A DNA stretch of 64,000 bases, taken from positions 124,001-188,000 of the forward strand of contig NZ_JAFKDE010000002.1 in the NCBI RefSeq assembly GCF_017255295.1. Reading direction: 5' to 3'. This document shows, piece by piece, positions 8,355 through 19,486 of the stretch (within the stretch, counting starts at the first letter, position 1; each line of letters begins with the position of its first letter). The notes under the pieces are model-generated. The model saw only the letters and a program-made list of their open reading frames with translations. It made no database searches and was not told where the DNA came from. A program made the position numbers and the translations under genes. The stretch is from Nitratireductor aquimarinus (GTDB lineage Bacteria > Pseudomonadota > Alphaproteobacteria > Rhizobiales > Rhizobiaceae).

Positions 8355-8373
8355 TTATAATGAAAACTGATAA
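8355..8373. promoter_or_regulatory. Candidate LysR-type operator (T-N11-A box)
   Basis: TTAT, eleven bases, ATAA: 4-bp arms with the classical LysR T-N11-A spacing, in the divergent spacer between the LysR gene and the molybdenum hydroxylase operon. The surrounding 70 bp are AT-rich compared with the flanking genes. A short motif of this kind also occurs by chance in AT-rich DNA. Confidence 0.4.
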
Positions 8374-8459
8374 ATTAATACGATAAATCCAGATGGTCAT
8401 ATAGATGAATTCCATGTTTGCTTCTCGCCAACGAACGACGATCCACCAAGGATCGCGAT

Positions 8460-8465
8460 GGGGAG
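8460..8465 (+). promoter_or_regulatory. Ribosome binding site fixing a TTG start
   Basis: GGGGAG ends 6 bases before TTG at 8472. No comparable site precedes the upstream TTG at 8418, so the large-subunit gene most likely begins at 8472. Confidence 0.6.
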
Positions 8466-8471
8466 CAGAGT

Positions 8472-10778
8472 TTGGATATCGGCGAGAACACCTCCGCACG
8501 AAAAGATGCATGGCTTGGCCGCAGCCTTCTGCGTGTCGAGGATATGCGCCTTGTGCGTGGTGGCGGCCAATATGTCGACGATCTCCTGCCCGAGGGCTGT
8601 CTTTTCCTGGAATTTGTCCGCAGCCCCTATCCATGCGGCGAGATCGTCGCGCTGGATGTTGAAGCGGCCCGGCGGGCGGAAGGCGTTGTCGCCGTTCTGA
8701 CCGCTGACGACCTTGGTGATCTGGGCGCATCAGCGATTAATCTGGTGCTGGCGGATATGGGCGCGCGCCCGCTGCGTCCACTGGCAAAGGGTGTTGTCGA
8801 GGCGACAGGTCAGGCTGTTGCCGCCATCATCGCAACGTCCCTTTCCGCTGCCCGTGACGCCGCCCAGAGCGTGTTTCTGGATGTGGAGCCGTCGGAGGGC
8901 GGCAGTGCAGCGGCAGAAGCCGAGATCTACGCACACCACCACACCGATGGCGATGTGGACGCGGCCTTTGAGCAGGCGGCGCACATTGTCACTGTGTCGG
9001 TGGAACACGCGCTGGTGGCTCCGACCGCGCTCGAGCCGCGCGCAACGCTTGCCGACTGGTCCCGGAACACGCTGACCGTCTGGGCTTCGACGCAGACACC
9101 TTTCCGGGTGCGTGAGGATCTTGCGCGCATTCTCGATCTGCCTCTGGCGCAGGTGCGCGTTGTCGCGCCGGATGTTGGCGGTGCGTTCGGCGGGAAATCG
9201 TCGATCTATCCCGAAGATGTGGTTGTCGCCTGGGCAGCGCGGCATCTGAAGGCGCCGGTCAAATGGTGCGCCACCCGTGGTGAGGAATTGCTCGCCGCGA
9301 CGCAGGGGCGCGGCGCGCGCAGCGAGGGCGAACTGGCCTTGTCCGCAGATGGCGTTCTGCTCGGGCTCCGGGCGCGGCTGGCGTTTCAGCTTGGTCACTG
9401 GATGCCCTACAGCGCCGCCATTCCCGGTCGCAATGCGAGCCGCATCCTTCCCGGCCCCTACCGGGTTCAGGCAATGGACATCGGTCTGAAGGGCTATCGC
9501 GCCAACCGCGCCGCCGTTGGCATCTACCGGGGTGCAGGCCGTCCCGAGGCGGCAATGCTGCTGGAGCGCCTGATGGATGCTGCGGCAAAACGGCTGAAAA
9601 TCGATCCGCTGGAACTGCGCCGCAGAAACGTGATCGACGCAAACTCCTTTCCCTATACGACGCCGACCGGCCAGACGCTCGATTCCGGCGATTACGGACA
9701 GCTCCTCGACAGGATGCGCAGCCATGCAGGCTATGAGGCCCTGCTTGCGCAGCGTGACGAACGCCGGGCTGCCGGCGAGGTCGTCGGTCTCGGTCTGGCG
9801 CTCTACATCGAACCCTGCGGGCAGGGCTGGGAAAGCGCCGATGTGAATTTCTGCCGCAACGGGATGTTTCAGGTCCTGACCGGGGCGAGCGCGCAGGGGC
9901 AGGGACGCGAGACGGCCTTCGCCCAGATCGCGGCCGACATGCTTCAGGTCTCGCCCGATCGCATCGCCGTCCGGCAGGGCGATACCGACGATCTTTCCGG
10001 CGGCATCGGCGCGCTGGCGAGCCGGGGCACGGCCATCGGCGGCAGCGCAGTCGTTCGTGCCTGCGAGATGTTACGGGGCCAGTTGACGGAGATCGCCGCC
10101 GGGCTTTTCCAGTGCGATCCGGAAATCCTGCTTTTCACCCGCGAGGGCATTTCGGCCGGTGTTGTGGGCGCTGCATCGATAAGCTGGAATGCCCTGGCCG
10201 ATCATGTGGCGGGAGAAGCACCCGGTCCGGCCCTCAAGCCGCTTCTGACCGGTTCCGTCGTCTACCACGCTGAAGGCGAAGCGTGGAGCAGCGGTTGTTG
10301 CCTCGCGTTTGTGTCCATCAATCCGCGCACCGGCGCGCCGACCTTCGAGAAGCTCTCCTGGGTGGACGATGCCGGTCGCGTCGTCAATCCGATGCTTGTG
10401 CGCGGCCAGCTGGTCGGCGGCATGGCGCAGGGGCTTGGTGAGGCGCTGATGGAGCGCATTGTCTATGACGATGACGGCCAGCTTCTGACGGGATCCCTGA
10501 TGGACTATGCCGTGCCCCGCGCCATCGACATCCCAGCCGTCGATATCGCGAAACTGGAGACCGTTTCTCCGGCCAACGCACTCGGTGCGAAAGGCGTGGG
10601 GGAGGCTGGCTGCATCGGGGCGCCAGCCGCGATCTTCAATGCGGTCTCGGATGCGGTCGCGCCGTTCGGTCCGCACAAGCTGCAGATGCCATTAACCAGC
10701 GAAACAATCTGGCGCGCCCTGCAGCAAGAATGGGCGCAGGCGCATCCACGGCAGCGGAAAAACGGGAGTTTGACATGA
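8472..10778 (+). CDS. Molybdenum hydroxylase (xanthine dehydrogenase family) large, molybdopterin-binding subunit
   Basis: 768 aa from TTG 8472, chosen for its ribosome binding site. The opening [23 protein letters not shown] is typical of CoxL/XdhA-type large subunits. GGAFGGK (236-242) is the molybdopterin-contact motif, and GVGEAGC with Glu711 is the position of the catalytic glutamate. The active-site loop reads YRGAGRPEA (352-360), not the YRCSFR loop with Mo-Cu cysteine of true CO dehydrogenases, so this is a hydroxylase of unknown organic substrate. Such enzymes add water-derived oxygen to N-heteroaromatic carbons or aldehydes. Its FeS and FAD partners are encoded 7.4 kb downstream, at the other end of the same apparent operon. 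The stop overlaps the next start (ATGA). Confidence 0.9.
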
Positions 10779-17463: not shown

Positions 17464-18158
17464 GCGTTGAAGGGCTTCAGGCCGCCTATGGCGCAAGCAG
17501 GATCCTTTTCGATGTCGCACTGGAGATCGGAGAGGGGCAGGTCGTGACCCTGCTCGGTCGCAACGGCATGGGCAAGACGACCACGGTGCGCACCATCATG
17601 GGGCTTTTGCCGGCGCAGTCCGGCAAGGTGCAGCTTCGCGGCAGGGATGTCACCGCGGCCGCACCCGAAAAGGTCGCCCGCCTCGGTGTCGGGCTGGTGC
17701 CGGAATCGCGGCAGGTGTTCCCAACGCTCACCGTGCGGGAGAACCTTGTAGCGACGGCCAGCAACAGGCTGAAGCGCAACAATCCCTGGACGCTGCAGCG
17801 GGTCTACGAGATGTTCCCGCGTCTGCGCGAGCGGGCGGGGCAGTCTTCTGGAACCCTGTCGGGCGGTGAGCAGCAAATGCTGGTGATCGGGCGCGCGCTG
17901 ATGACCAATCCGCATCTTCTCATCCTTGATGAGGCGACGGAGGGGCTCGCCCCCGTCATTCGCCGCGAGATCTGGCAATGTCTGGAGCGCCTCAAGGCTG
18001 AAGGTCAGTCGATCCTGTTGATCGACAAGAATGTCGAGGTGCTCAAGCGCCTTGCCGACCATCATTACGTTCTGGAAAAAGGACGTACGGTCTGGTCGGG
18101 CACAAGCGCCGATCTGGAGCGCGATTCAGAGTTGGTGCATCGCCATGTCGGCATCTGA
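17457..18158 (+). CDS. ABC transporter ATP-binding protein, LivF type
   Basis: 233 aa, the normal LivF length. Walker [10 protein letters not shown], the LivF-specific [22 protein letters not shown], signature LSGGEQQML, Walker [14 protein letters not shown] and a C-terminal VHRHVGI. Start overlaps the end of the LivG-type gene. The final H-loop position reads LIDKN rather than LVEQN: the usual switch region has Asp-Lys in place of Glu-Gln/His, a small departure to note. Confidence 0.92.
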
Positions 18159-18212
18159 CGTCTGGTTTGTGTGCTGCAGATCGTCTGCGCTGAAGCGCCA
18201 TGAGGTATGTCC

Positions 18213-18683
18213 ATGACCTGCGTGACCATGCGCATCAATGGCGAGGCCGTGACCGAAGACATCGAAGACCGCACGCTGCTCGTGGATTTCCTGCGGGTGC
18301 GCAGACGCCTGACTGGAACGCATGTCGGGTGCGACACCAGCCAGTGCGGCGCGTGTGTGGTGCATGTCGATGGCGAGGCGATCAAATCCTGCGCCATGCT
18401 TGCCGTGCAGTGCGAGGGGCGGGAGGTGACCACCATTGAGGGGCTTGCCGAGGGCGAAAACCTGCACGCCATGCAGAAGGCATTTCACGAATGCCATGCG
18501 CTTCAGTGTGGCTTCTGCACGCCGGGAATGATCCTGTCGGCGCTCGATATGGTGCGCCGTCATGGCGCGGCTTTGGATGAGGCGACCATTCGGCATGAGC
18601 TCGAAGGCAATATCTGCCGCTGCACCGGCTACGAGAACATCGTGAAGGCGATCCGCCAGGGCGCGCAGGAGATCTCTGCATGA
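18213..18683 (+). CDS. Molybdenum hydroxylase small subunit, two [2Fe-2S] clusters
   Basis: 156 aa from ATG 18213, which has GAGG seven bases upstream; ATG 18207 is too close to it. The plant-ferredoxin-type cluster uses Cys40, Cys45, Cys48 and Cys60 ([21 protein letters not shown] region). The helical-domain cluster uses Cys99, Cys102, Cys135 and Cys137 (CGFC and CRC). This is the CoxS/XdhC-like electron-transfer subunit that links the molybdenum centre to FAD. Its partner large subunit is at 8472-10778 and the FAD subunit follows with a 4-bp overlap. A 54-bp gap separates it from the ABC ATPase gene. Confidence 0.93.
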
Positions 18684-19486
18684 ACCCGTTCTGCTACAGG
18701 CGCGCTGAAAGCGTGGAGGCTGCGGCTGCATTTCTGGGCGAGGCCGAAGAGGCGAGCCTGCTTGCCGGCGGGCAGACCCTGCTGCCGACGATGAAGCAGG
18801 GGCTGGCCGCGCCCGACATGCTGGTCGATCTGGCAGGGATCAGCGCTCTGAAAAAGATCCGCATCGAGCCTGATGCGATCATTGTCGGGGCCATGTGCAC
18901 CCATGCACAGGTGGCAGGCGCCGAGGCCGTTCGCAGACATGTTCCGGGCCTTGCCGCCCTTGCCGGAGAGATCGGCGATGCGCAGGTGCGCAATCGCGGA
19001 ACGCTTGGCGGGTCCATCGCCAACAATGATCCGGCAGCCGATTATCCGGCTGCCTGTGTGGGGCTTGGCGCGACCGTTCTTACCGACCGGCGCGAAATCG
19101 GGGCTGACGCCTTTTTCCTGGGCCTGTTTGAGACTGCGCTTGAAGAGGGGGAGATCATCACCGGGGTGCGTTTTCCCCTTCAGCGTCGCTCCGCCTATCT
19201 GAAGTTTCGCAATCCTGCCTCCCGGTTTGCGATTGTCGGCGTCTTCGTGGCCGGTGTGCCAGGGAGTGTGCGCGTCGCCATCACCGGTGCCGGCCGCGAT
19301 GGCGTGTTTCGCTGGTCTGCGGCAGAAGAGGCGCTCAATGAGCGCTTCCACCCGGAGGCGCTGGAGCGGCTCGTGCTGCCTCTGGATGACATGCTCTATG
19401 ATATCCATGCCAGCGGCGAATACCGCGCCCATCTGGCGAAGGTTCTTGCCGGTGATGCTGTCGCGGAAATTTCAGGCGGGGCTTAG
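18680..19486 (+). CDS. Molybdenum hydroxylase medium subunit, FAD-binding
   Basis: 268 aa. Both FAD pyrophosphate motifs are present: AGGQT at 29-33 and TLGGS at 108-112, each in the usual context ([13 protein letters not shown] and [21 protein letters not shown]). The CoxM-like C-terminal domain follows. It passes electrons from the FeS subunit to an external acceptor. No tyrosine-loop feature of NAD-reducing xanthine dehydrogenase is recognisable by eye, so the acceptor is unknown. Last gene of the apparent operon; convergent with the two-component genes. No molybdenum cofactor sulfurase/chaperone (XdhC/CoxF-like) gene is seen nearby. Confidence 0.92.

Follow-up and report, generated by a model that had tools for sequence, protein, structure and literature searches.

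We think it somewhat probable that an operon of Nitratireductor aquimarinus serves, under LysR control, to take up and degrade 3-hydroxyanthranilate (3-HAA) and a hydrolysable precursor, with a molybdenum (Mo) enzyme in place of an aldehyde dehydrogenase (ALDH) and with the last two enzymes acting in trans. The operon lies in a stretch of 64,000 nucleotides (NZ_JAFKDE010000002.1, positions 124,001-188,000; hereafter the window) on contig C2 of the 4.57-Mb genome. Its eleven genes (Table 1) all run on the + strand from 8472 to 19486 in frames free of internal stops. They encode the three subunits of the Mo enzyme (MoL, MoM and MoS), a 3-hydroxyanthranilate 3,4-dioxygenase (HAO), a metallo-beta-lactamase-fold hydrolase (MBL) and a Liv-type importer with two substrate-binding proteins (SBP1 and SBP2). 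A LysR gene, also an open frame, diverges from the front. A preliminary description of this DNA had reported eleven co-directional genes with overlaps or short gaps behind a divergent LysR gene, and frames, domains and recurrence in relatives confirm that layout. Judged by its arrangement, the set looks like one LysR-controlled operon.

The dioxygenase and its conserved neighbourhood

The window HAO scores above two curated cut-offs (NF009763, 277.1 versus 220; TIGR03037, 266.5 versus 146). Residue positions were taken from an ungapped alignment with HAO of C. metallidurans, in which we take H51, E57 and H95 to be Fe ligands, R47, R99 and E110 to contact the substrate, and four cysteines to form a rubredoxin-like site. 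The window protein has equivalents of the six named residues, as do 118 of 118 loci (117 for E110, one being read as X), and it keeps all four cysteines. By score and residues, the predicted product is a true member of the 3-hydroxyanthranilate 3,4-dioxygenase family.

From 406 relatives returned by an HAO scan we took the 80 most similar, so that this sample is biased. Further samples came from related genomes, 11 of 60 of which have HAO over the cut-off, and from genomes of the class (24 of 289; the N. aquimarinus genome is counted in both). Among 77 plasmid records with an HAO match, 12 annotated regions were inspected, the last four of which stand outside the counts given below. Altogether 156 loci with an HAO match were reduced to 118 non-identical ones, and 99 of these are flanked by 6 kb or more on both sides; the window is not one of the 99. 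The loci are mutually related, and the identity cuts (60% for ALDH, 40% for MoL and 55% for the DHDPS-like protein) were set by hand. Sorting of genes into families by length also took in several antisense frames of this high-GC DNA (F27 and F44, perhaps F9, F11 and F22), and these families were set aside.

The gene order of the window, with two extra genes (DHDPS-like and AspDH), is found in three of the 80 best loci: L012 and L015 from Stappia and L024 from Mesorhizobium soli NHI-8. The core HAO-SBP2-permease-permease-ATPase-ATPase recurs in many more. Because the same order returns in these three loci and the core in many others, the neighbourhood is more than chance. The homologues could have been scattered among other genomes; their conserved neighbourhood instead favours the preliminary description and supports its proposal of a gene group for uptake and ring opening of an N-containing aromatic compound with an importer of its own.

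The Mo enzyme as a proposed aldehyde dehydrogenase

MoL and an SSADH-like ALDH were never found together in the 99 loci: ALDH alone is present in 40, MoL alone in 31 and neither in 28 (Fisher p 1.3e-9, ignoring relatedness). Many clusters read LysR(-) X DHDPS HAO, with the SSADH-like ALDH at position X in some and MoL in others; there are also clusters in which the ALDH is placed differently. On a tree of HAO plus the DHDPS-like protein from 73 loci there were at least 10 changes of state, at least 5 of them forced by starred (well-supported) branches, compared to about 24 with shuffled labels. A tree of HAO with 109 rows, 79 of them with a state, gave 14 changes with weak support. Both kinds are found within Nitratireductor, arranged in sister pairs (L007/L009 with the Mo enzyme, L011/L014 with ALDH). 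Because MoL and ALDH swap exclusively across loci, the most fitting role for the Mo enzyme is that of an aldehyde dehydrogenase that would act after ring opening, rather than that of a ring hydroxylase acting upstream. The generic (hetero)aromatic hydroxylase of the preliminary description does not agree with an enzyme that takes the place of the ALDH in relatives.

The MoCo-binding, FAD and 2Fe-2S domains exceed the Pfam cut-offs and mark a Mo dehydrogenase of the xanthine oxidase family, with CO_deh_flav_C of MoM under its cut-off. MoL carries two motifs, one of 15 residues and GVGEAG. The top NCBIfam model for all three subunits is glyceraldehyde dehydrogenase, each time below the cut-off (L, 591.6/790; M, 187.5/350; S, 196/290). 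The Mo glyceraldehyde dehydrogenase is an archaeal aldehyde oxidiser. The window enzyme shares L, M and S subunits and MoCo, FAD and 2Fe-2S domains with the three-subunit Mo dehydrogenases of this family (glyceraldehyde dehydrogenase, CO dehydrogenase, quinoline 2-oxidoreductase), but it falls below all listed equivalog cut-offs, sits in the genomic place of the ALDH, and has its L gene at the front of the operon and its S and M genes at the end. An aerobic CO dehydrogenase (form I) was rejected on score (TIGR02416, 394.7 versus 991) and on the loop, which reads YRGAGRPE where form I presumably has AYxCSFR. The 37 cluster MoLs, that of the window included, form one group apart from three other MoLs, the sole outsiders compared. 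L142 and L143 have MoL with no annotated small or medium subunit gene in the stretch, and 25 of the 31 MoL loci have no MoS at 55% identity or more.

Among solved structures, MoL has quinoline 2-oxidoreductase and 6-hydroxypseudooxynicotine dehydrogenase as relatives. These relatives, together with an importer inside the operon and MoL motifs that suit the whole family, would also fit a self-contained route in which a pyridine or quinoline carboxylate is taken up and hydroxylated by the Mo enzyme, and the dioxygenase opens the ring afterwards. We consider such a route unlikely, since MoL replaces the ALDH in repeated swaps and since some MoL clusters (L012, L015) include kynureninase, which would supply 3-HAA without ring hydroxylation by a Mo enzyme.

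DHDPS-like protein and AspDH

A DHDPS-family, aldolase-like gene is linked to HAO in 76 of the 99 loci. AspDH is present in 59, in 58 of them with the DHDPS-like gene. ACMSD and RidA occur in 6 and 7 of the 99 loci, respectively, and in none of the 76 loci with the DHDPS-like gene (0/76 for each). Of the 11 genomes with HAO over the cut-off among the 60 relatives, 10, that of N. aquimarinus included, also encode the DHDPS-like protein (E<=1e-60), and no genome outside these 11 does; in the remaining one, G048, HAO is accompanied by ACMSD and RidA. Annotated plasmids of Shinella and Ensifer carry kynU, an SSADH-like gene, LysR, the DHDPS family, HAO and AspDH, and those of Streptomyces and Mycetohabitans a semialdehyde dehydrogenase, RidA, HAO and an amidohydrolase, the HAO/ACMSD set that we take to be the nba pathway. 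The Schiff-base lysine of the DHDPS-like protein (K177, alignment position) is invariant in 18 of 18 aligned sequences. An ALDH-DHDPS-HAO-AspDH cluster was also seen in an actinobacterial record, the Acidimicrobiales metagenome-assembled genome (MAG) of L042, where transfer or a binning error is possible.

The N. aquimarinus genome has one DHDPS-like gene (C9:4976-5995; E limit 1e-60) and one AspDH (C9:6109-6885; E limit 1e-10). Both belong to a second HAO locus on contig C9 (L113, 4254-9409) with HAO, the DHDPS-like gene, AspDH, LysR and an SSADH-like ALDH, which is the other cluster type. Because the copies found both sit on C9, the window operon is not complete, and the 'complete' route of the preliminary description has to be given up. 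The difference is plain in L005 (same contig as L151, same genus), which has MoL-DHDPS-HAO and ATPase2-AspDH-MoS where the window has MoL-HAO and ATPase2-MoS. The operon might on this account be a redundant, decaying second copy that lost two genes as the C9 locus suffices and that has little function now; the two genes are gone exactly where L005/L151 and L012 have them. The eleven intact frames and tight spacing are at odds with decay, and MoL-HAO without a linked DHDPS-like gene is also found in genomes that carry an unlinked copy (L032, L039), so we rate decay as quite unlikely.

A linked DHDPS-like gene is missing from 23 of the 99 loci, and the genomes of 13 of these were searched for an unlinked copy. 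Nine of the 13 have one, including L032 and L039 with the MoL-HAO order of the window.

The canonical lower pathway of 2-nitrobenzoate or kynurenine degradation (ACMSD, a semialdehyde dehydrogenase and a RidA-type deaminase) might instead be supplied by unlinked genes. Its gene set adjoins HAO in Streptomyces, Mycetohabitans and some Alphaproteobacteria, and ACMSD and RidA occur once with a similar importer (L155). The window shares with this nba/kynurenine pathway (HAO, ACMSD, aminomuconate semialdehyde dehydrogenase and a RidA-type deaminase) the HAO family and its active-site residues, and kynureninase stands beside HAO in Streptomyces as in some clusters of the DHDPS type. However, the window operon has neither ACMSD nor a RidA-type deaminase, where relatives have the DHDPS-family protein and AspDH, and an SSADH-like ALDH or the Mo dehydrogenase replaces the 2-hydroxymuconic semialdehyde dehydrogenase type. 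Across the whole genome, searched for ACMSD and not for RidA, there was no ACMSD match at E<=0.001, although the same query matched the three controls G048, G234 and G243 at 57-63% identity. With ACMSD and RidA also absent from all 76 loci of the DHDPS type, we find the canonical pathway highly improbable here.

Peripheral modules and the substrate

Three unrelated peripheral modules adjoin the same core in relatives: kynureninase, a Qdo-type dioxygenase and a PnbB-type lyase. Kynureninase is found beside HAO in Shinella and Ensifer (with the DHDPS family and AspDH), in Stappia and in Phaeobacter; the Phaeobacter stretch has HAO and ALDH, and no DHDPS-like gene was seen in it. The Qdo homologue (1H-3-hydroxy-4-oxoquinoline 2,4-dioxygenase, 3ibt, E 3e-79; L021 compared) is accompanied by a flavin monooxygenase and an alpha/beta hydrolase, and xanthurenate would be a fitting substrate for this module. 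A PnbB-family hydroxylaminobenzoate lyase with flavin/FMN reductases lies beside DHDPS-HAO-AspDH in Sinorhizobium mexicanum and Rhizobium bangladeshense, which suggests a nitrobenzoate-type entry. PnbB-type lyase and reductases resemble the start of the 2-nitrobenzoate route. All three modules would converge on 3-HAA, provided that the quinolone bears an 8-OH. Because three unrelated modules share one core, the ring-opening substrate can be narrowed to 3-HAA; the N-containing aromatic class named in the preliminary description stands, in this more specific form.

The cofactor-free, Qdo-type module was seen upstream of the HAO cluster in L008, L010, L016-L018, L021-L023, L025-L028 and L030. The PnbB-family lyase lies at 5963-7720 in L148 and at 4057-5804 in L183, where lyase and FMN reductase are fused.

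Quinolone dioxygenase routes of the Qdo/Hod kind are those of Arthrobacter and Pseudomonas. Clusters of the relatives have the Qdo homologue, the flavin monooxygenase and the alpha/beta hydrolase, of which only the last is in the window, and without an 8-OH a quinolone would not lead to 3-HAA. That the window itself degrades quinolones was rejected, as no flavin monooxygenase or Qdo match is present in it; in the whole genome the Qdo query gave only weak matches, 27-36% over part of the length, none convincing. The alpha/beta hydrolase upstream of LysR is of the same kind as that found upstream in the relatives' clusters and is likely an N-acyl- or formyl-anthranilate hydrolase. At the limits used, the genome has a single gene each for kynureninase (C4) and tryptophan 2,3-dioxygenase (C5). 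The portions of the open PMC literature available to us gave nothing usable on xanthurenate degradation or on links between quinoline and 3-HAA.

Importer, SBP1 and the MBL hydrolase

SBP1 is 67-69% identical to SBP2 and the two are close paralogues. MBL is present in 11 of the 99 loci, always with the alpha/beta hydrolase, the DHDPS-like gene and an importer of the same type, and SBP1 in 8, always with MBL. The window has the SBP1 and MBL pair without a linked DHDPS-like gene. The HxHxDH motif of MBL and its further His and Asp are invariant in 11 of 11 aligned sequences (window included, the L015 copy left out), and among solved structures it is closest to hydrolases of organophosphates, dihydrocoumarin and homoserine lactones. 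MBL and SBP1 look like an accessory uptake and hydrolysis pair that would widen the importer to a hydrolysable precursor.

The fold family and metal motif are common to the window MBL and to MBL lactonases, organophosphate and dihydrocoumarin hydrolases and 4-pyridoxolactonase, but the window protein is under all NCBIfam cut-offs. An N-acyl homoserine lactonase (AidB, 90.6 versus 360) and a 4-pyridoxolactonase (60.6 versus 325) were rejected. For benzoxazolinone-type substrates, the parts of the open PMC literature to which we had access mention an MBL in papers on how fungi detoxify benzoxazolinones, none of them decisive. A urea importer (Urt) was likewise rejected, all scores of the importer proteins scanned (all but permease 2 and ATPase 1) being below the cut-off (UrtB, 194.3/250.3; UrtE, 225.4/285.8; UrtA, 51.3 and 55.7/492.75).

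Proposed route

Taken together, the genes would encode the following route. The Liv-type ABC importer with its two binding proteins may take up the compounds, and MBL, together with SBP1, may hydrolyse an imported ester, lactone, lactam or amide to release 3-HAA or one of its precursors. By the known chemistry of its family, HAO would open the ring to the C7 compound 2-amino-3-carboxymuconate semialdehyde (ACMS). The Mo enzyme would then oxidise the aldehyde formed by ring opening, most likely ACMS to 2-amino-3-carboxymuconate, as its exclusive swap with the ALDH suggests. A DHDPS-family hydratase-aldolase is predicted to cut C3-C4. One product would be malonate semialdehyde (C3) and the other a C4 compound, either iminosuccinate or oxaloacetate plus ammonia, which AspDH would convert to aspartate. 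In N. aquimarinus these last two steps would be supplied from C9. In an alternative order, aldol cleavage would precede oxidation and release malondialdehyde. The proposed chemistry agrees with the number of carbons and with AspDH being present.

In a quinolinate variant, ACMS would cyclise spontaneously to quinolinate, which the Mo enzyme would then hydroxylate. The cyclisation is known chemistry, and Mo hydroxylases of pyridine carboxylates exist, nicotinate dehydrogenase being among the structure matches of MoL. The variant leaves unexplained why ALDH replaces MoL in similar clusters and why DHDPS-like and AspDH genes are the partners, and it appears to us very unlikely.

Several observations weigh against the proposed 3-HAA route. 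The operon itself has no DHDPS-like gene and no AspDH, and service by the C9 copies in trans is only plausible, on the ground that 9 of the 13 genomes searched carry the DHDPS-like gene unlinked. No DHDPS-like match was found in the other four: L066 and L071, which are of the ACMSD/RidA type, L168, and L036, a MAG with MoL-HAO. The surroundings of the DHDPS-like active site are altered, with a GKQGE motif and a Trp where NAL and DHDPS have a Tyr, and the reaction given above is guessed from the fold and the number of carbons. None of MoL, ALDH and ACMSD is present in 22 of the 99 loci, and an ALDH-family match of 54%, below the 60% cut, lies in the MoL stretch of L153. MoS is near MoL (at least 55% identity) in only 6 of the 31 MoL loci; in the clusters without it, S and M must be borrowed, encoded elsewhere or too diverged for the 55% cut. 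The ACMSD query also matched the DHDPS-type genomes G003, G007 and G052 weakly (27-35%), although these matches are probably other amidohydrolases. The whole route, moreover, is read from genes.

A broader proposal is quite possible, if still short of probable: a widespread route from 3-HAA that bypasses ACMSD, in which an NAD-dependent ALDH and a Mo dehydrogenase are interchangeable and often swapped, a DHDPS-family enzyme makes the split and nitrogen is kept as aspartate and not as ammonia. The window would then be a Mo front end separated from an aldolase and AspDH that act in trans. HAO-based catabolism is already known, and the DHDPS/AspDH branch and the exchange of ALDH for a Mo enzyme appear to be new. 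Neither was found in the open PMC literature as far as it was accessible to us, and a description outside it is possible. Degradation of anthranilate by a 3-hydroxyanthranilate pathway with meta-cleavage is described for Geobacillus (PMC4539516), the available passages of which do not mention aspartate.

The breakdown routes of tryptophan, nitrobenzoate and quinolones meet at 3-HAA. HAO is usually taken to lead to quinolinate and NAD or to the ACMSD route, and if our proposal is true the annotation of genomes with HAO would change. The clusters would also be a natural experiment in which a Mo flavoprotein and an NAD-dependent ALDH have replaced each other repeatedly for one reaction.

Operon layout, regulatory region and neighbouring genes

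Domains assigned by Pfam and NCBIfam are MoCoBD_1/2, Ald_Xan_dh_C, 3-HAO, two Peripla_BP_6, Lactamase_B, two BPD_transp_2, two ABC_tran, Fer2/Fer2_2, FAD_binding_5 and LysR; the NCBIfam scans took in part of the proteins and left out permease 2 and ATPase 1. The start of HAO is most likely ATG 10775 and not 10730, which gives a 4-base overlap with MoL (ATGA). With ATPase 1 probably starting at ATG 16705, its apparent 112-base overlap with permease 2 shrinks to 4. Gaps of 27, 10, 44, 85 and 8 bases separate HAO/SBP1, SBP1/MBL, MBL/SBP2, SBP2/permease 1 and permease 1/permease 2, respectively, and the spacing is -7 for ATPase 1/ATPase 2, 48 for ATPase 2/MoS and -4 for MoS/MoM.

An AATTWAT-type element is present in 32 of 42 equivalent divergent regions (the window and two duplicate regions counted), where mononucleotide shuffles average 0.74; these counts come from mutually related regions and are suggestive only. 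A combined motif was found in 14 of the 42 regions, all of the ALDH type.

Table 1. Genes and other features of the operon region (positions in the window).
Feature	Position	Strand	Remarks
LysR-type regulator	7434..8345	-	divergent; family F6 in 30/112 loci
Divergent intergenic region	8346..8471	.	AATTAAT element 8373-8379
MoL, molybdenum-binding large subunit, xanthine oxidase family	8472..10778	+	start TTG 8472; open reading frame open from 8418
HAO, 3-hydroxyanthranilate 3,4-dioxygenase, cupin	10775..11326	+	metal, substrate and rubredoxin-like Cys residues intact
SBP1, substrate-binding protein (Peripla_BP_6)	11354..12526	+	
MBL, metallo-beta-lactamase-fold hydrolase	12537..13490	+	closest solved structures are lactonase/organophosphate hydrolases
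SBP2, substrate-binding protein (Peripla_BP_6), core importer	13535..14704	+	
Liv-type permease 1	14790..15704	+	
Liv-type permease 2	15713..16708	+	
Liv-type ATPase 1	16705..17463	+	open reading frame open from 16597; ATG 16705 likelier start
Liv-type ATPase 2	17457..18158	+	
MoS, [2Fe-2S] small subunit of Mo enzyme	18207..18683	+	
MoM, FAD medium subunit of Mo enzyme	18680..19486	+	
Alpha/beta hydrolase upstream of LysR	6519..7418	+	family F8 in 28/112 loci; solved relatives include kynurenine formamidase

A response regulator and a histidine kinase (19541-21717, - strand) converge with the end of the operon at a distance of 54 bases. At 5311-6453 (+) the window encodes a 380-aa protein with a family-3 solute-binding domain split around a Lig_chan segment, which resembles a bacterial glutamate-receptor-type ion channel. 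One strand (+) carries a urease alpha subunit, a UreG-like GTPase and a UT-family urea transporter at 23495-29527. A single-chain protein of the indolepyruvate ferredoxin oxidoreductase family (1752 bits), also an enzyme of aromatic amino acid breakdown, is encoded at 41570-44989 (-).

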